DNA of 64,000 nucleotides from Phycisphaeraceae bacterium (lineage in GTDB: Bacteria > Planctomycetota > Phycisphaerae > Phycisphaerales > UBA1924). The position numbers were made by a program, and so were the translations under genes. Below the pieces are notes generated by a model. It had not been told where the DNA came from, made no database searches, and saw only the letters and a program-made list of their open reading frames with translations. How positions within the stretch are numbered: the stretch's first letter is position 1; every line of letters starts with the position of its first letter. Below are positions 1 to 31,816 of this stretch, one piece after another. Location: NCBI GenBank assembly GCA_019636625.1, contig JAHBXE010000004.1, positions 1 through 64,000 of the forward strand, written 5' to 3'.

Positions 1-94
1 CCGGCTTGTCCGAAGCAAGTGCCCCCCGTTAAGAGAAGCGCACTAACCCCCCCCCCCCCCCCCCAAACATTCTGCGAGCAAAGGACTTGAACAT
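1..94 (-). CDS. N-terminus of a secreted protein with G-run in signal peptide (partial, out of phase)
   Basis: Only the first codons lie in the window; the body runs off the left edge. The start ATG at 94 is preceded by GGAG with good spacing and encodes MFKSFARRMF, a basic n-region. An 18-G run follows. In the ATG frame translation then stops within a few codons (LVRFS, stop). Adding one G (or removing two) opens a frame reading VSALLLTGGTCFGQA, a typical signal-peptide core with cleavage site. The gene is therefore written out of phase in this assembly. Its upstream sequence and first codons match those of the RCC1-type gene at 5271, so it is probably a paralogue of that protein, but its body cannot be seen. 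Confidence 0.6.
47..64. repeat. 18-bp homopolymeric C tract (G on coding strand)
   Basis: Eighteen consecutive C on the plus strand, read as six Gly codons on the minus strand inside a signal-peptide coding region. Such tracts are highly slippage-prone and are also hard to sequence. Confidence 0.95.
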
Positions 95-526: not shown

Positions 527-2041
527 TCAGGGACATCCCGTTGCGAACTTGTTCAGGAAGCACTGGAAGTCATTGGCCGTGAGGATCGGCGGCGAGGTCG
601 ACCCGTCGCAGTTCGCGTCCGGGCTGGATGCCGCGAACGTGTTGAGGAAGCACTGGAAGTCGTTGGCCGTCAGCACGGGCGGTGTCGATGACCCGTCGCA
701 GTTTGCGCGGCACACTTCGAAGGCCCCCACCGACGCCGGCAAGGCATAGCACACACCGGCCAGGTCGCCGGTCGCCGCGAGCGGGCTGCTCGCGCGGCCC
801 CTCGCCGGGCTCGACGGGCGCAGCGCGAAGTTCCCCTGCGGATCGAAGAACAATGGGTCCAGCCCGGAAACGCCGTTGGTCTGCGGCACGGGCAACGCCG
901 GCGCCGAGGCCCCGGGATTGTCAAACGCAAACCAGAAGTTCCCGTCGAACGCAAAGGTCCCCGGAGCCGTGTTCGCGCCGGTGTTTACATACGAGGAGAG
1001 ATCCGAACGCCGGAAGTACACAAGATTGTTCACGAACCGCCCGCCCGAGCAGGGGATGAACGTGTATGGTGGCTGCGTCACCGTCTCCTGCAGAATGCGG
1101 AGGATCCAGTTGTGCGGTGTGATGATCGTGTTGTTCGCCGCGAGGCAGTCCACGCACCCGACAAACGCGAGCGGCGCTTGCGATCCGATGATCAGGTTGC
1201 TCACCACGCGAACATCCCGCGCTTCGAAGTTCGCTTCGGTTGACGAAAGTGGCGGGCGGAAGAACTCCAGCCCGGTCGATCCTCCCATGTTCACCGCCCG
1301 CTGGCCCGCCTCGATCATGCGGCACCAGCGGACCTCAATGTCATCTGACCCGCCTTTGCACTGCACCGCGTTGCCGGACATGTCCCGGAAGGTTGTGCGA
1401 GCGATCAGGCCACGGTGGCACCCGACCATGTCCACACCACTGCCCGCGTTCGCGCCGCCGCACCGCTCGATCTCGCAATCCACCACCACAACATCCCGCA
1501 CGCCCGAGAGCTTGATCCCGTCCTGGTTCCCCGTTCCCCCCACATCGCGCACATGCACACGGCGGATGGTCAGGAACCGCGCCGCTTCCGCGTTGGCATA
1601 GTCCCCCCCATCGTCGGCGTTGATCCCGTTGGCCGTCACGTTCCGCACCTCAAGATCGTGCACCACGATGTACCGCGGCCTCACCAGGTGCAGCCCCTCG
1701 CCGCCCCCCTCGATCACCGGGCGCGCCTGCCCCGGCGCACCCCCGATCCAGATCGGCGCCGCCGCCGTTCCCGCGAGGTTGGTCAGGAACGTTCCCCCGG
1801 GATACGTCCCGGGCAGCAGCACCACCGCCGTCCCCGGCGTCGCCTGTGCCGCCGCGAAGGCGATCGTCCCGTACGGGCTGCCCGCCGTCCCGTTGCCCGA
1901 AGCGTTGCTGCCCGAGGGAGACACGTACACGGTCCGCGTCGGCGACAGTCCCATGTCAAACGAGGGAACGAGGTCGCACGATTGCCCGACCGCCCCCGCG
2001 GGGATCGCCACGATCGCCAGCACCGCCAACTCGCCCCGCAT
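527..2041 (-). CDS. Secreted right-handed beta-helix protein with C-terminal dockerin
   Basis: 504-residue secreted protein. The start chosen is the ATG at 2041 because it gives a signal peptide (MRGELAVLAIVAIPAGAVGQ); a longer in-frame start at 2125 would add a non-signal extension. Residues from about 35 show the layout of pectate-lyase-like parallel beta-helix proteins: YVSPSGSNASGNGTAGSPYGTI, then rungs such as VVHDLEVRNVTANGI and VVVVDCEIERCGG. This fold usually binds or cleaves polysaccharides; no catalytic residues can be assigned. The last 61 residues hold two EF-hand-like dockerin repeats (TANDFQCFLN twice) and end GCP. It is divergent from the metzincin gene at 2174, with a short shared upstream region. 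Confidence 0.85.
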   Translation of the reverse strand: MRGELAVLAIVAIPAGAVGQSCDLVPSFDMGLSPTRTVYVSPSGSNASGNGTAGSPYGTIAFAAAQATPGTAVVLLPGTYPGGTFLTNLAGTAAAPIWIGGAPGQARPVIEGGGEGLHLVRPRYIVVHDLEVRNVTANGINADDGGDYANAEAARFLTIRRVHVRDVGGTGNQDGIKLSGVRDVVVVDCEIERCGGANAGSGVDMVGCHRGLIARTTFRDMSGNAVQCKGGSDDIEVRWCRMIEAGQRAVNMGGSTGLEFFRPPLSSTEANFEARDVRVVSNLIIGSQAPLAFVGCVDCLAANNTIITPHNWILRILQETVTQPPYTFIPCSGGRFVNNLVYFRRSDLSSYVNTGANTAPGTFAFDGNFWFAFDNPGASAPALPVPQTNGVSGLDPLFFDPQGNFALRPSSPARGRASSPLAATGDLAGVCYALPASVGAFEVCRANCDGSSTPPVLTANDFQCFLNTFAASSPDANCDGSTSPPILTANDFQCFLNKFATGCP

Positions 2042-2103
2042 CAGGCAGCCCTCCGGGCTCGCATTATCGAGAACCCCCACCCGGGAAAGCAACCGGAAAC
2101 CAC

Positions 2104-2132
2104 TTGGGCTTTTCGGTTTTTGCATGTAGTCT
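2104..2132 (+). promoter_or_regulatory. Candidate promoter of the metzincin gene
   Basis: TTGGGC, 17-bp spacer, TAGTCT, lying 42 bases upstream of the ATG at 2174. The -10 resembles the TAGACT of the duplicated promoters; the -35 is weak. Confidence 0.3.
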
Positions 2133-2173: not shown

Positions 2174-5017
2174 ATGCGATCACTCATCGCGGCGTTGCTG
2201 TTGATCCCCGGAACTGGCGCGCTGGCGCAAGACAAGCCCACCCCGGCCACCGAACAACGACGCAGCTACGTCTCTCAACTCCTCCCCGGCACCGCCCCGG
2301 CGGCCAGGCGCCCCGCCTCGCAAGCCCCCGCCTCCATCCGCGAGGTCGGTGCGGCCGGCACATGGACCCACCTCCGTATCGACCGCAACGCCCTCGCCCA
2401 GGCCGCCACAGCCGGCGCGTTCGTGATCCCCGGCGTTCGCCTCGATGGCGTCGCCTTGGACCTGATCGTCGAGCGCTTCAGAATCACCCACCCCGAGTCC
2501 CGACTCGTCCTCGGTAGCGGCAAAGGCATTGATGCCCCCGCCGCGTTCGACCCGGAAACCGTCGTCCTCCTCCGCGGCCGGGTCGAGCAATACCCCACCT
2601 CGCACCTGTACCTCGCCGTTTCCCCGTCGATGATTAACGGCCTGATCGACCTCGGCCCGGGCTACCCGCGCTACGGCGTGTCGTCCCGCCTCGCCGGCCG
2701 CCACCTGCCCGAGGGCGAGGCCGTGCTCTTCAAAGCCAAGGCCTCACGCGATCCCAACCCCGCACCCTTCTGCCAGGTGCACCACCCGGAGCACCAGGAC
2801 CCCCCCGGCGGCGGCGGCGACGCCCCGTTCATCAAGAACCTCCGCCAGATCCAGCTCGCCGTAGAGACCGATCACGAGTTCTTCCAGATCCTCGGGACGG
2901 AACCGGCCGCACTCGAATACGTGCTCCACCTCTACGGCGCCGTCAGCGATATCTACATGCGCGAGATCAACTGCCGCGTGGACATCGTGTACACCCGCAT
3001 CTGGCCCCAGCCCAACGAGCCCTTCAACGCCTCTCTCAACGACTTCCGTTCGTATTGGTTGGCCAACATGGGCTCCGTCGCCCGTGACGTGGCTCAGATG
3101 TTCAGCGGGCGGGGCGACCTTCCCGGCGGAGTGGCCTACCTCAACTCCCTCTGCACCAACACCGCCTACGGCTTCTGCGGCAACCTCGTCGGCTTCTTCG
3201 CCGACCCCGAGAGCTCGAGCGTGTTCAACTACGACCCCCTCGTCGCCGCCCACGAACTCGGCCACAACTGCGGCACCCTCCACACCCACGACTACCAGCT
3301 CGACACCTGCGCCGACATCAACACCCCCGCCCAGCGCGGCACGATCATGAGCTATTGCAACCAGACCATCAGCGGCGCCATGGGCGTCGAGGACCTCACG
3401 TTCCACAAGGTCACCCGGCAGGCCATGATGGATTACATCGTCACCCGGCCCAACTGCGTCGTCTTCGACTGCAACCAGAACGGCATCCGCGATTCCATCG
3501 ACATCCAGAATCTGACAAGCCTGGACGTCAACGCCAACGGCATCCCCGATGAATGCGAGGACTGCAACCAGAACGGCATTCTCGACACCATCGACATCGG
3601 CACCATCAGCTTCGACCTCAACGGCAACGGCATCCCCGACGAGTGCGAGCCCGATTGCAACAACAACAACATCCCCGACGACCGCGACATCCTCCTTGGT
3701 ACCAGTCTGGATGTTCACGGCAACGGCATCCCTGACGAGTGCGAGGCCGACCTCAACGGCAACAACATCTCCGATTACACCGAGATCATGGCCAACATGG
3801 CCCTCGACATCGACCGCAACCGAACCCTTGACAGCCGCGAGGATTGCGACAACGACGGCATACCCGACCTCGCCGAACTCGACGGTGCGCACAACGGCTG
3901 GGCCGCGAGCCTTTCCCAACCCGAGGTCCGCTCCTACCACCCGATCTCCGGCGTCCTCATGAACACATCCGTGGCCGGCGCCACCGCCCCGGTTCGCGAT
4001 CTGGTCATCACCCCCGACCGCCGCATCCTCATCGCCGCGGCCAACGGGGTTCGTGAGTACGATGTCTCCGGCGCGTTCGTCCGCACGCTTGTTCCGATCG
4101 GCTCCGGGGGCCTCGGTGTTCCCTCCGCCCTTTTCCTCGCGGATGCCGCCACCCTCCTGGTCGCCGACAGAACGGGAAATCGCATCCTCCGCTACAACCT
4201 CTCAACGGGTGCGTTCATCAATGTCTTTGTCGCTGCCGGCTCCGGCGGCCTCGCGGCCCCCATGGGCATCACCCGCGGCCCAAGCGGCGACCTCTTCGTC
4301 ACGAGCGAGACCAACAACCGCGTGATCCGCTACAACGGCACGACCGGCGCCCTCATCGGAACGTTCGTCGCGTCATCGTCCGGTGGCCTCTCAGCCCCCA
4401 AGGGCCTCGCCTTCAACCCCGTCACCGGAAACCTCCTGGTCGCCAGCCACGGCACCGACCAGGTGCTCGAGTACAACGGCGCCACGGGCGCCTTTCTCAA
4501 GGTCTGGTCCATCGTCGGCGTCCACTTCCACGGCCCGTGGTGCATCCGCATCGGGCGCGATGGCCAGGTGTACGTCAGCGCGAGCGTGGATGAGATGGAC
4601 ACGCACTTCACGCGAGCGAAGATCCTCATCTTCGAGCCGCGCCTCGGCAACTTCGTCCGTGCGTACGTCCAGGCGCTCGATTCGCAGATTGTCCAGACCT
4701 CCGGTTTCGACTTCATGCCCGGCACCGGCCGCGACTGCAACTTCAACCAGGTCCCGGACAACTGCGATATCGCCTCCGGCTTCAGCCAGGACTTCAACGC
4801 CAACGGCGTCCCCGACGAATGCGAGCGCACCTGCTACGCCAACTGCGACCTCTCCACGGGCACACCCCTGCTCACCGCCAACGACTTCCAGTGCTTCCTC
4901 AACGCCTTCGCCTCTGGCTACGCCTACGCCAACTGCGACGGCAGCACGGGAACGCCCGTCCTGACCGCCAACGACTTCCAGTGCTTCCTGAACCGCTTCG
5001 CCCAAGGCTGCCCCTGA
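2174..5017 (+). CDS. Secreted metzincin-type metalloprotease with NHL-like repeats and dockerin
   Basis: 947-residue secreted, modular protein. GGAG lies 8 nt before the ATG, and residues 1-19 form a signal peptide ending ALAQ. After a propeptide-like region, a zinc metallopeptidase domain (about 215-430) carries HELGHNCGTLH at 360-370 and the Met-turn around M392 (GTIMSYC), which marks it as a metzincin resembling the M12B/reprolysin group. Residues about 430-580 are Asp/Asn-rich calcium-binding-type repeats (DCNQNGI..DxxDI..NGIPDECE). Residues about 600-850 are NHL/beta-propeller-like (LVADRTGNRILRYN). Another NGVPDECE unit precedes the two-repeat dockerin (about 887-947), ending GCP. Probable role: extracellular proteolysis on or near the cell surface. 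Confidence 0.88.
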   Translation: MRSLIAALLLIPGTGALAQDKPTPATEQRRSYVSQLLPGTAPAARRPASQAPASIREVGAAGTWTHLRIDRNALAQAATAGAFVIPGVRLDGVALDLIVERFRITHPESRLVLGSGKGIDAPAAFDPETVVLLRGRVEQYPTSHLYLAVSPSMINGLIDLGPGYPRYGVSSRLAGRHLPEGEAVLFKAKASRDPNPAPFCQVHHPEHQDPPGGGGDAPFIKNLRQIQLAVETDHEFFQILGTEPAALEYVLHLYGAVSDIYMREINCRVDIVYTRIWPQPNEPFNASLNDFRSYWLANMGSVARDVAQMFSGRGDLPGGVAYLNSLCTNTAYGFCGNLVGFFADPESSSVFNYDPLVAAHELGHNCGTLHTHDYQLDTCADINTPAQRGTIMSYCNQTISGAMGVEDLTFHKVTRQAMMDYIVTRPNCVVFDCNQNGIRDSIDIQNLTSLDVNANGIPDECEDCNQNGILDTIDIGTISFDLNGNGIPDECEPDCNNNNIPDDRDILLGTSLDVHGNGIPDECEADLNGNNISDYTEIMANMALDIDRNRTLDSREDCDNDGIPDLAELDGAHNGWAASLSQPEVRSYHPISGVLMNTSVAGATAPVRDLVITPDRRILIAAANGVREYDVSGAFVRTLVPIGSGGLGVPSALFLADAATLLVADRTGNRILRYNLSTGAFINVFVAAGSGGLAAPMGITRGPSGDLFVTSETNNRVIRYNGTTGALIGTFVASSSGGLSAPKGLAFNPVTGNLLVASHGTDQVLEYNGATGAFLKVWSIVGVHFHGPWCIRIGRDGQVYVSASVDEMDTHFTRAKILIFEPRLGNFVRAYVQALDSQIVQTSGFDFMPGTGRDCNFNQVPDNCDIASGFSQDFNANGVPDECERTCYANCDLSTGTPLLTANDFQCFLNAFASGYAYANCDGSTGTPVLTANDFQCFLNRFAQGCP

Positions 5018-5134: not shown

Positions 5135-5293
5135 CGACAGTTTTTCTTGCATTCTTATGGAATTGAACTAGACTCAGGGTGTACGCTCTGGTATGCCATC
5201 GCTCGACCTCCCGATTTTCGGACCCATGCGGGCCCGCCGTGGAGGTGTCGAGTGACGATGGAGAAATGACATGTTCAAGTCCTTTGATCCGCA
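5135..5293 (+). repeat. Duplicated promoter-leader-N-terminus module, copy B
   Basis: Plus-strand counterpart of the copy at 64-233 in inverted orientation. It holds TTGCAT-16-TAGACT, a hairpin at 5219-5236 (7-bp stem with one A-C mismatch), GATGGAGAAATGAC before the start, and the same first five codons. Conservation of the stem despite sequence changes in the loop suggests the leader hairpin matters. Confidence 0.75.
5147..5174 (+). promoter_or_regulatory. Sigma70-like promoter of the phase-variable RCC1 gene
   Basis: TTGCAT (5147-5152), 16-bp spacer, TAGACT (5169-5174). The ATG at 5271 leaves a leader of roughly 90 nt containing the hairpin at 5219-5236. Conserved in copy A. Confidence 0.5.
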
Positions 5294-6283
5294 GGGGGGG
5301 GGGGGGGGGGGGCGTTCGTTGGCGCGGTGCTGATGTGCGTTTCAAGTAGCGCGGGGCAGACTGCGGGGACGGCGATTTGCTGGGGTTGGGACTTCAACGG
5401 TGAGTGCACACCGCCGAGCGGTCAGAAGTTCGTCAAGGTTTCGGCGGGGCACAGATTCAGTCTGGGGATCAACTCCAACAACCAGATAGTGCATTGGGGA
5501 TGGACAGCGAACGGGCGAGGGAATATCCCCTCCGGCGACGTCTTCGTACAGGTGTCGGCTGGCTACGACCACGGCCTCGCACTTGATGCCACCGGCAACG
5601 TGTACGCGTGGGGAGGCGGAGACCCCAACGCGGGCCTCGGCTGGGATCAAGGAACGGTCCCGAGTGATCCAAGAGGCGATAGTGTGTACACCCAGGTCTC
5701 TGCGGGTGAGGCATTCAACCTCGTTCTTCGCGCCGATGGCACGATCTGGCACTGGGGTCGCGACTCCGAGGGTCAAGATGACATTCCACACAACGAGACT
5801 GGAGCGTCCGGGTTCGTTCCGTACGTTGCCATCGATGCCGGGGGACACCACGGCATCGGTTTGAGAGCTGATGGCTCGATTCAAGTGTGGGGTGGTCAGA
5901 ACTACACGTGTACAACACAGGGAGTCTTGCCGTCCTTTCCTTCCGACACACCGTTCATCGCCGTCGGGGCAGGGCACATCACCAGTTACGCGGTGAAGTC
6001 CGACCGGTCGGTCGTTTGGTGGGGCGGGTGCAATGGGTGCAACACCGAACCGGTCAACCACATAGACATTCAGCACGCGTTTATTGATGGAGGCTACGGT
6101 CATGCGTACGCACGAACGGCCAGCTCGCACGTGTATGCTTGGGGCAGTCCCTGCACTCCGGGAGGAGGCACGCTTGTCTTTGCTGAGCCGCACGAGGTGC
6201 CGTCTTTCCTGGCCAACGCGGTTGTGCTGTCGGCCGCAACCGGCCACAGCAACCACCACAACATCGTCATCATCATGGACTGA
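5271..6283 (+). CDS. Secreted RCC1-repeat protein with 19-G run in signal peptide (frame split)
   Basis: The start ATG at 5271 (MFKSFDPQ, with GGAG upstream) reads into a G run at 5294-5312 and then stops at 5331. The frame that encodes the signal-peptide core (AFVGAVLMCVSSSAGQ) and about 310 residues of RCC1 repeats is displaced: it needs 20 or 17 G instead of 19. In phase the product would be 336-337 residues. The body shows RCC1-type blades (FVKVSAGHRFSLGINSNNQI, VYAWGGGDP, IWHWGRDSEGQ), a seven-bladed propeller fold used for protein binding. Unlike its neighbours it has no dockerin and ends NIVIIMD. A GTG at 5327 could start translation internally but would lose most of the signal peptide. 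Either it is switched off in this isolate or the tract length is an assembly error. Confidence 0.7.
5294..5312. repeat. 19-bp homopolymeric G tract in signal-peptide coding region
   Basis: Nineteen G counting the last base of a CAG codon, then CGTTCG. Tract length modulo 3 decides whether the ATG at 5271 connects to the secreted-protein frame. Confidence 0.95.
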
Positions 6284-7322
6284 GCGCCCGTTCCGCCAGC
6301 CCCGCTTTCCGGCGGGGCTGGCGGCCCTTGGTGCCGCGGCGTCCGTGGCGGCCGGGCAGCAACTCAACGCGCCCGGTCGGATCGTGTGGTGGGGAGAAAC
6401 GGCGGCAAACGCGCTTCTGCAGCCGCCTCCCGGCGTGTACACCACGCTCGCGGTCAACAGTTCTCACGGCCTGGCGCTGCGGCCCGATGGGACAATGGTT
6501 GGATGGGGCGCGAACTTCTCCGGCGAGGCCACGCCGCAGCCCGGTCGTTTTACGCAAGTGGCGACGGGGCTCCACCACAGTGTGGCCCTGCGGGAAGATG
6601 GCACCGCGGTGGCGTGGGGTTGGAACTCCTTCGGCCAGGCCGACACACCCTCTGGCAAGTTCGTGCAGGTTTCGGCGGGATACAACAGCAGCGCGGGCGT
6701 TCGGCCCGATGGGTCGATTCATGTCTGGGGCGGGCTCGCCTGGGCACCAGTGCCGCCCGGTACTTACCGCTTCGTCAGCGTGGGTGGAGGCGGGTACATC
6801 GGTGCCATCCGAACCGATGGAACGCTGGTCACGTGGGGGCCCTCGCTTCCCGTCATCCCGGGCGAGTTCATGTCGGCGTACTTCAACTGCATTTCGGCGG
6901 CCCTGAGAACGGATGGGACGGCCGTGACGTTTGGTCAGTGCAACCCGCAGAACTACCCTGCACCACCCGGGACGTTCACTCACCTCAGCCAAGGCTCGGG
7001 CGGTGGAATCGCGGCGCTTCGCGACGATGGCGTCATCGTTCCGTGGGGGCCGCATCCTGCGAGCGTGCTCAATGTACCATCCGGCCGGTTCTCATACTTG
7101 TGCATGGGACCCGAAACCGGCTTCGCCATCCAACCCTGCTACGCCAACTGCGACAACAGCACCACCGGCTCGCTCCTGACGGCCAACGACTTCCAGTGTT
7201 TCCTGAACAAGTTCGCAGCGGGCGATACTTACGCCAACTGCGACGGCAGCACAGGAACGCCGGTCCTGACCGCCAACGACTTCCAGTGCTTCCTGAACCG
7301 CTTCGCCCAAGGCTGCCAATGA
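6275..7322 (+). CDS. RCC1-repeat protein with dockerin, start codon disrupted
   Basis: Second RCC1-type gene in tandem. A signal-peptide core (LAALGAAASVAAGQ) is followed by RCC1 blades (GRIVWWGE, MVGWGANFSGEATPQPGRF, VAWGWNSFGQADTPSGKF) and a dockerin of two repeats ending GCQ. No in-frame ATG, GTG or TTG with a ribosome-binding site lies at the expected place. The ATG at 6275 sits one base out of phase; removing one of the two G at 6277-6278 would give MTERPFRQPRFPAG joined to the signal core. As written the gene is probably silent, relies on a rare start such as CTG at 6318, or carries a one-base error. It may derive from a tandem duplication of the upstream gene. Confidence 0.6.
6295..6322 (+). 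other. 11-bp perfect hairpin at the junction of the two RCC1 genes
   Basis: GCCAGCCCCGC (6295-6305), loop TTTCCG, GCGGGGCTGGC (6312-6322). It lies just after the first gene's stop and inside the n-region of the second gene's signal peptide. No U-run follows, so a simple intrinsic terminator is unlikely. Confidence 0.6.
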
Positions 7323-25224: not shown

Positions 25225-26962
25225 CTAAGGCTCCTCGTTGAACACAGCGCGACGGGTCAGAACGTCGAAGCCGGTTGAACTTCCATTCCAGACGTCGCTC
25301 GCGACCACGAGATGATGGAGCGGGTCTCCGATCTGAAAGAACGGGTTGACGATGAGTGCGCGTGGAAGGTCCCCGCCCGATGCGGAGCCAGAGTAATCCA
25401 GCGGGTCCACATGCCACGGTTTTGAATCTGGGTTTGTGGGGCTGGTGCTCTCGAACGAAGAAAAGACGACGATGCGAGAGTTCGTGTCCGAGGCGCTCGT
25501 GGGCACCTGGCCAGCGGCGTAGACATAGAACCACTCAAGAGGGTCCCCGGGCGGGCTTGTGCTCGTGGTAAGATCGATCCGTACGGCACTGCACACATCC
25601 GAGATGTTGATGGCCGGCGCAAGGGGGTTGTTCATCCACGCCGTCCACCGAAGGCTGGGGCTCCCGCTGTTCTCGTTGTACAGCGCCACCACCGCGTCAT
25701 TCCCGCGGGAAGCATCGCGCCGGGTGTGCCCGCCGATCGCGATCATCCGCGGCAGGCCGCTGCCGCCGGGGAACATGTCGAGCGCCAGCGCCTCGCCCGC
25801 AAAGGGTGTTTCGGGATTACCATCATCGAAACTGAACCGAGTGAGATAGTCCCCGGAGTTGAAGAGGTCGATCTTGGCCAGGAACATGAACGAGTCCTCG
25901 ATGCCGCTGGCCTTGCCCGCGATGTACACCTGATCGGCGTCAACCCCGGACACGGCGTGGCCCCGCATGGCATTGGCCGTGAACCACTCTCCGGTGTACA
26001 TCAGGTCGATCTGGTGCTGCTCCCACACGCTCGGCTTGTAATCGACCGCGCGGTAGCACGCCGCGAACAGGTAGTTCGAGCCCGGGATCGCCGGGTTCGT
26101 GTAGGTCCCAGCAATCTGAAAGCGACTGTTCGGGTATGGACCATAGCTGTCCGGAAATATGTTGATCCCGCACACCTTGTAGGCCGCGCTGCCAGCCTGC
26201 AGGAAGTTCATGCCGAGAATCTGCCCCGAGTCGCTGTCGTACAGGATCGTGTGGGCATCCCACCCGCCCGCATGGTAACAGTTGCCGGTGACGCCTACGA
26301 CCGTCGTCACGGTCGGCTCGGGGTAGCTGTAGTAGTTCACGCCGGGACCGGCGGCGATGTCAACCGGATAGTCGTCCACGAGGCCGGGAAGCGTCGCCAC
26401 CGGTCCCGGCCGACTGTGCGTGTGCGACCAGAGGGGCATTCCCAAACTCCCACCCCAGCACACCGTATGGAAGTCCGTGTTGCCGTGCTGCGTCGCTTGG
26501 CTGTACCCGGTCACGATCACGCGGGCCGAGCCGGTTGTGCCGTCGCTGCCACCGCCCCCACATCCTCCCTGTACAACCTCCATCGCTGTTGGAACAAAGT
26601 AGTTGGTGGAACTTGGCTCGCTCGGCCAGACCACCGGTGAACCAAACGCCTCACCCGTGTCATACCGGTATCGCAAAAGCGTCAACGCCCAACCGCCATC
26701 GCTTGGTGTGCCAATCCATGTCTTCGCCGCGACCACGAGAAGCCTCGTAGCAGTGTCTCCGCAGCCCTTTCGAATCGACAGTGGTCGGGTATCAATCACC
26801 AGATCCGCATGAACCGTTCCGCCCTGGCCCGTGTGCGGCGCCGGCGCTGATGCTCCCCATACATCAAGCAGCGATGGTTGAGCTGTCGCCACGGCACTAC
26901 CCATACCCCCCCCCTAACATCACCGCAAGAACCCCCCAAACCAACCCAGTTCTCCGCTTCAT
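25225..26962 (-). CDS. Secreted protein of unknown function, signal peptide split at a 9-G run
   Basis: The body (559 residues when read from the ATG at 26904) begins MGSAVATAQPSLL, the end of a signal peptide. The natural start is the ATG at 26962: AGGAG sits 6 nt upstream and it encodes MKRRTGLVWGVLAVML, a perfect n- and h-region. The 9-G run at 26906-26914 puts the two out of phase; 8 or 11 G would join them into a 578-579 residue protein. As written translation from 26962 stops after 21 codons. The body contains HTRRDASRGNDAVVALY and other beta-rich repeats with no recognised domain and no dockerin. It is followed after one base by a dockerin protein gene. Confidence 0.68.
26906..26914. 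repeat. 9-bp G tract (C on plus strand) in a signal-peptide coding region
   Basis: Separates the ribosome-binding site and signal-peptide start from the body of the secreted protein. Length modulo 3 sets the frame. Confidence 0.9.
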
Positions 26963-27070
26963 GGCTCGCTCCTGTACCCCCTGCCACACAACCTTCGTCA
27001 CTTCCGGGTTCCCGCGGCCCCAAAAGCGGCCCGCACGTTCGTACCCCTTCCGTGCGTGCGGGTTGCATCC

Positions 27071-30982: not shown

Positions 30983-31816
30983 CTAGTTCCTCCGCTCTTC
31001 GTCAATCGGCAACGGTTCCCACGATAGAAACTTCCCCAGCGACACCATCATCGTGCCCCGCGGGCTTCCCTGGCCACCCATCTGGAACCGTCCACCGTAC
31101 CGCGCCACCAGCTCCCCGCCCCCGCGCCCCCGCGGCACCCAGACATCCACCACCGTGCTCCACACCTCCGGCTCCAGCACCAGCAGCCGACGCGCCGTCT
31201 CCCGCTGCAACGCCGACAGGTCCCCCGCCGAGAACGCCGTGTTCAGGTCCGCTTCCGTCACCTCCCCATCCCGCCGCGCCGCCACAAGACTCTCCGCAAA
31301 CCGCCGCCCGCTCCGCCCCTCGCGTGCGTACGCCGCGATCGCCTCCAGCACCTCCACCGGCGCCGTCATCGCCGACACCGCCACCGGCCCCACCGGCCGC
31401 AGAAACATCCCCCCCCCCCGCCGCAGCCGCCGCGCCCCCACCAGCTTCACCAGTTCATTCAAAGCCCCCTGCGCATCCAGCGACTCGCGCTCGCTCCGAC
31501 CGATCGGATCCGACACCAGCGTCCCCTGCCCGTCAAACAGGTAGATCGACACCACGCTCCCATCCGGTCGCTCGATATCCAGCGCGTGCCCGTCATCCTC
31601 CAGAAGGTCCCGGATCGACTGCCCGATCAGCGTGTCCGTCCACTGCGAAACCACCTCCCGCACCCCGCGCTCAAAGTGCGTGTCCTGGTACGCATGGAGC
31701 TGCCGCGCCACAATCCGCCGCTGCATCGCCTGCCGCTCCAGCACCACCGCCGCCAGCACCCCGGCCACCAGCGCCAGCACGATCACGATCGGCATCGCAA
31801 ACCCGCGCCGGCTCAT
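30983..31816 (-). CDS. GspK-like minor pseudopilin
   Basis: 277 residues. ATG at 31816 overlaps the upstream gene by ATGA. The N-terminus MSRRGFAMPIVIVLALVAGVLAAVV is a prepilin leader with cleavage after Gly5, lacking the Glu at +5 as GspK does. Length and the large globular domain also fit GspK, which caps the pseudopilus tip. Inside the gene a run of 11 C (31409-31419) encodes RRGGGMF; the frame is intact here but the run is slippage-prone. Confidence 0.7.
   Translation of the reverse strand: MSRRGFAMPIVIVLALVAGVLAAVVLERQAMQRRIVARQLHAYQDTHFERGVREVVSQWTDTLIGQSIRDLLEDDGHALDIERPDGSVVSIYLFDGQGTLVSDPIGRSERESLDAQGALNELVKLVGARRLRRGGGMFLRPVGPVAVSAMTAPVEVLEAIAAYAREGRSGRRFAESLVAARRDGEVTEADLNTAFSAGDLSALQRETARRLLVLEPEVWSTVVDVWVPRGRGGGELVARYGGRFQMGGQGSPRGTMMVSLGKFLSWEPLPIDEERRN

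Follow-up and report, generated by a model that had tools for sequence, protein, structure and literature searches.

Poly-G tracts in the signal peptides of secreted-protein genes in a family of Phycisphaerae-type bacteria: a probable phase-variation device

G-tract contingency switches are known mostly from host-adapted bacteria, and those of Campylobacter lie mostly in genes for enzymes that modify surface structures and are not confined to signal peptides. Each Campylobacter genome has a poly-G/C phasome of tens of tracts, located in surface-related genes (PMC4965091, PMC6321876), and this phasome resembles the system described here in the large number of tracts per genome. Similar in arrangement are the Bifidobacterium breve pilus genes bbr_0113 and bbr_1889, in which a Sec signal and the protein body lie in two frames that join at a G tract of -1+3n G's, and for which replication slippage has been shown by deep sequencing (PMC9187656). 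As in the genes below, the two B. breve frames meet at a homopolymeric G tract, the annotated genome is out of frame, and the tract gene is first in its cluster, so that the remainder depends on it. The differences are that the B. breve genes are actinobacterial LPXTG sortase pilin genes in one or two clusters per genome, with neither RCC1 repeats nor a shared hairpin leader described, and that their length changes were followed by deep sequencing, whereas the lengths here are read from assemblies.

In the gonococcal pilC1 and pilC2 genes, a G tract in the signal-peptide region switches expression (PMC5354566, citing Jonsson 1991), and these genes share with ours the tract within the signal peptide and, as we infer here, a reading frame that decides expression. 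Unlike ours, they are two copies coding for a pilus-associated protein in a host-adapted pathogen, with no known sequence link. The Neisseria opa genes carry pentamer CTCTT repeats near the 5' end (PMC5354566, PMC5953494) and provide a parallel for several paralogues that each have their own 5' repeat and together give many on/off combinations, although the opa repeats are pentamers rather than G runs and the products are outer-membrane proteins. The literature searched, the coverage of which is incomplete, yielded no account of Planctomycetes using such tracts for phase variation.

The window analyzed here is 64,000 nucleotides of an assembled Phycisphaeraceae bacterium genome (GCA_019636625.1, contig JAHBXE010000004.1, positions 1 to 64,000), and in this genome and its relatives many genes for mutually unrelated secreted proteins carry a G tract in the signal-peptide part. 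Slipped-strand phase variation of these proteins is the best reading of the tracts and, in our judgment, a probable one.

A tract gene at the window edge

The window is contig C34 from base 1, and the first tract gene, g1, which is on the minus strand, is hence at a contig edge. It is preceded by promoter-like boxes (191-218) assigned by consensus match, TTGCAT (213-218) and TAGACT (191-196) with a 16-base spacer, which are at the same place in a second tract gene, g2. A structured leader (92-175), identified with an RNA model (R1) and by folding, contains a hairpin (CCATCG..CGATGG) beside a Shine-Dalgarno GGAG (102-105, found by pattern search) and ends at the start codon. The ATG (92-94) opens a signal-peptide n-region, MFKSFARRMF (65-94; DNA ATGTTCAAGTCCTTTGCTCGCAGAATGTTT), and it is followed by the tract, 18 G as assembled (47-64, C18 on the plus strand), and by the remainder of the signal peptide, VSALLLT[A]GTCFGQA (1-46), which is one base out of register. 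The tract and its flanking frames read directly as the first-pass annotation had described them. With the window's own GG frequency, the expected number of runs of at least 18 is about 1e-4, and this frequency and the position behind a start site rule out a chance G run.

The body of g1 is on another contig of the same genome, C7 (L074), which begins with a ragged G run followed by the g1 sequence and overlaps the window end, matching it at 45 of 46 bases after TTAG. There, the VSALLLT frame is open for 318 codons and codes for RCC1-type repeats (E 7e-78 in a search with a paralogue). An open frame leading leftward from VSALLLT was the test that the first-pass annotation had set for itself, and the RCC1 repeats that it expected are also present; the dockerin that it thought possible is not on g1 itself, dockerin-like repeats being located instead at the end of the next gene downstream, a second RCC1 gene (MKEIRVRSRNSVDASRQP..).

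Close to the tract, GGGGTTAG and ACGGGGGGC of the window correspond to GGCGTTAG and ACGGCGGGC on C7, and the stretch is further from the contig end on C7 than in the window; the peptide by the C7 reading is VSALLLTAGTCFGQA. From this mismatch it follows that the window carries C-to-G errors beside the tract, and the last bases of the G18 are probably miscalled. With such miscalls at the contig end, the exact G count and phase of g1 are unreliable, and the earlier claim of exactly 18 G is not sustained.

These errors raise the question of artefact more generally, in that the G runs, or their exact lengths, could result from loss of Illumina signal at hairpins and G-rich DNA. Assembled tract lengths can be wrong, and past a G tract Illumina reads deteriorate into G's (PMC9187656). 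In this genome, several contig ends are obvious G/C junk. Long G/C runs are present at the ends of contigs C1, C7, C9, C13-C16, C18, C21, C22, C25, and C34, and tract genes may therefore be undercounted where they are broken at contig ends. These terminal runs also count in favor of phase variation, as contigs of Illumina assemblies are reported often to end at the poly-G/C tracts that phase-variable genes carry (PMC4235727). Artefact is the likely account for the exact length at the g1 contig end only. As an account of the tracts at large we hold it to be very improbable, since paralogues and other genera carry tracts in the interior of contigs and at a shared codon position, with lengths down to the well-assembling G8 to G10.

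Five paralogues with a shared leader and a third tract gene

A search with the 157 bases upstream of the start, start included, matched five places in the genome: C34 minus (g1), C34 plus at 5141 (g2), C23 (g3), C21 (g4), and C3 (g5). In all five, a promoter-like TTGC-TAGAC pair is followed by a hairpin leader that ends near a Shine-Dalgarno site, an ATGTTC.. start, and a G tract at the same position, with lengths of 18, 19, 12, 9, and 12 in g1 to g5, respectively. Behind the tract is a signal-peptide end of the form (A)(F/L)VGAVLMC..SSA (VSALLLTAGTCFGQA in g1) and then RCC1 repeats. The R1 model recovers the same leader at the five places with E values of 1e-21 or better, and folding z scores range from -1.6 to -3.0 across the copies; covariation is weak and, with five sequences, merely suggestive. 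The leader matches no Rfam family at E up to 1, and outside this genome the model found nothing convincing among 163 family genomes (best E, 0.005). The first-pass annotation had counted g1 and g2 as independent instances of one architecture, but the two are paralogues that have the leader in common and do not count as independent.

Gene g2 is complete in the window, on the plus strand. Its promoter-like boxes (5147-5174) are TTGCAT (5147-5152) and TAGACT (5169-5174), 16 bases apart, and the leader (5190-5273), by the R1 model and folding, is the same element as that of g1. The ATG and n-region, MFKSFDPQ (5271-5293), are followed by a G19 tract (5294-5312) that is out of frame, n = 2 modulo 3 being needed, and the body (5312-6283) contains the signal-peptide remainder AFVGAVLMCVSSSAGQ and RCC1 repeats over 323 codons (Pfam RCC1_2, PF13540; E 7e-28). 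An alternative g2 start codon in the other frame was considered and rejected, as upstream stops block it. Two genes without tracts are located between g1 and g2, one coding for a beta-helix protein with a GC-type dockerin (527-2125, minus strand) and one for a large reprolysin-like metalloprotease with dockerin-like repeats (2174-5017, plus strand).

Behind g2, and overlapping its end, is a further RCC1 gene (gene B; 6284-7322, plus strand, start approximate; RCC1_2, E 7e-23) with a GC-type dockerin repeat at its C end (NF041540; E 2e-9); on the tract gene itself (gene A), no dockerin was found, the Pfam search giving RCC1 only. The start of gene B lies inside gene A or at its end, with ATGACCACAACATCGTCATCATCATGGACTGA in g4 and g5 and an ATGA overlap in g1, and the overlapping ATG of g4 and g5 is replaced in g2 (6250-6330). 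The overlap suggests that gene B is translationally coupled to gene A and is thus probably switched along with it.

All five paralogues are out of frame as assembled, in two classes (g1 to g3 and g4 to g5), and because the chance probability of this is 0.13, it is weak evidence by itself. For g4 and g5, the sequences past the tract have diverged at 39% of synonymous sites and 6% of nonsynonymous ones (dN/dS 0.12), and the other pairs give dN/dS values of 0.05 to 0.32, with synonymous sites saturated in several. Such purifying selection indicates that these are genes in use and not dead, even though they are assembled out of frame.

A third tract gene in the window is on the minus strand, with a Shine-Dalgarno GGAG and an ATG (26960-26972), the peptide MKRRTGLVWGVLAVML before the tract, a G9 tract (26906-26914) with one G too many, past which the assembled frame meets a TAG at a distance of two codons, and a body of 560 codons (25228-26907; GMGSAVATAQPSLLDVWG...) that reads GMGSAVATAQP behind the G9 and matches no Pfam family. 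It has a paralogue on contig C13 (L285, G11), which also carries one G too many. Elsewhere in the window, a different gene region has a minus-strand run of G11 (31409-31419, C11 on the plus strand).

Tract loci in the family and their reading frames

The genomes compared include no other species of the genus of the window genome, and the same device is present in Phycisphaerae bacterium MAG-56 (JAEUIZ01; G045), of the same family and a different genus, which has many RCC1 relatives. At least five of these have a G tract in a signal peptide unlike that of the window family, including three paralogues with identical flanks and tracts of G10 (L082), G11 (L107), and G8 (L137), and two others with G10 (L097) and G11 (L144); the RCC1 genes of this genome that lack a tract have ordinary in-frame signal peptides. 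Related genera have about 20 tract loci in addition to the five paralogues of the window genome. Genome G151 has two paralogues, one with G9 in frame (L278) and one with G11 out of frame (L267), and two species of one genus (G112 and G113) both have G10 and the same frame class. One genome of the family, G157, has 296 runs of at least 11 G/C, far above the other family genomes.

A Shine-Dalgarno GGAG followed by an ATG and at least 10 G is found 22 times in the window genome and MAG-56, compared with once for the reversed pattern, and 81 compared with 28 times in the 163 family genomes. This enrichment behind start sites also speaks against artefact. A stricter pattern applied to 397 genomes of the class gave four matches outside the family, none of them a convincing signal-peptide gene. 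With five paralogues, about 20 loci in related genera, and purifying selection, the first-pass proposal of a real, shared, frame-controlling tract rather than a chance pseudogene is borne out.

Requiring a Shine-Dalgarno site, an ATG, at least eight G's, a single clear open frame, a hydrophobic core, and positive charge yields 29 signal-peptide tract loci in the family, of which three are in frame and 26 out of frame, with g1 left out because its body is on another contig. The three in-frame loci are below the one-third expected without selection (p = 0.004; the counts include related loci), and one of them, L382 (G8), resembles an ordinary gene; L167 (G15) is an additional in-frame case outside the filters. 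Twenty of the 29 carry one G in excess (or lack two) and six lack one, so that the earlier formula of one more G or two fewer does not generalize, most loci having one G too many. An earlier, stricter set had one locus in frame, 19 with one G extra, and six with one short. Ascertainment was considered as a source of the out-of-frame excess and rejected, as in-frame loci are still rare at G7 (eight genomes) and at G8 after TTH (whole family).

The 26 out-of-frame loci could be taken as decaying genes killed by tract expansion, but this is a very unlikely explanation: the bodies behind the tracts, of 140 to 814 codons, are open, pairs show the dN/dS values given above, the leader, Shine-Dalgarno site, and signal peptide have been retained, and the pattern is seen in many unrelated genes.

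The median distance from the tract to the first stop is 3 codons in the frame entered with one extra G and 32.5 codons in the other wrong frame. Against randomly chosen positions within these genes, the stop in the extra-G frame is nearer (permutation p < 1e-4, for the full set and also when each of 18 families contributes a single locus, in a test chosen after the data were inspected), and in the other wrong frame it is no closer than chance (p = 0.5). The window RCC1 family lacks the close-stop effect, with distances of 12 and 6 codons. The test does not depend on assembled tract length, and the stop excess thus also counters artefact. The near stop may keep the commonest "off" product short, sparing the Sec machinery, or it may be part of a recoding site.

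Slippage, recoding, and the biology of the family

The second of these possibilities belongs to a rival in which the out-of-frame arrangement is the working state, and slippage of RNA polymerase or a +1 ribosomal shift joins signal peptide to body in a fixed fraction of products, the near stop ending the rest. The excess of one class (20 of 29 loci) despite differing tract lengths and reading offsets, the close stop in exactly that frame, as at known frameshift sites, and the retention of the class between G112 and G113 are all as this rival would have them. It is nonetheless unlikely, because there are in-frame members with the same nearby stop (L277 and L278), the identical-flank paralogues of MAG-56 (G8, G10, and G11) fall in different classes, the window family is itself split between g1 to g3 and g4 to g5, tracts of up to G19 far exceed what a +1 ribosomal shift site needs, and the like-looking Bifidobacterium arrangement was traced to replication slippage (PMC9187656). 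A stronger form, that the tract and the extra-G stop together serve the secreted proteins of this lineage as a dedicated recoding cassette, in which out of frame is normal and a set, perhaps regulated, rate of slippage in RNA synthesis or of +1 shifting in translation meters the export of many unrelated proteins at once, is similarly doubtful.

Slipped-strand phase variation accounts for a long homopolymer in the coding region near, and behind, a real start site, for a gene kept by selection though out of frame, and for tract lengths that differ between copies with in-frame and out-of-frame states, these differences being between paralogues, with one genome per species and from assemblies. Counting against free slippage alone are the few in-frame loci (3 of 29) and the placement of 20 of the 26 out-of-frame loci in one class. 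Under slipped-strand phase variation, translation would begin at the ATG that follows the hairpin leader and read the positively charged n-region, and the signal-peptide core and body would be reached only with the right number of G's modulo 3; with the wrong remainder, a stop would be met a few codons past the tract and there would be no export. Replication slippage would alter the G number, so that tract lengths would change within a population and its cells would differ in which of the five paralogues, and which other tract genes, are on. Single cells most likely switch each secreted protein on or off by copying slips, and the use of this is probably variation of the surface or matrix in response to phages, grazers, and changing surfaces.

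The trick is known from pathogens such as the gonococcus. Here, uncultured Phycisphaerae-type bacteria of an environmental lineage, all within one bacterial family, would have an entire set of such switches, distributed over the signal peptides of many secreted proteins that are unrelated to one another and with a close stop kept in one frame. Should this be confirmed, gene callers are missing or truncating such genes, contig breaks in such metagenome-assembled genomes are partly biological, and environmental Phycisphaerae-type bacteria would keep mixed populations that differ in their secreted proteins.
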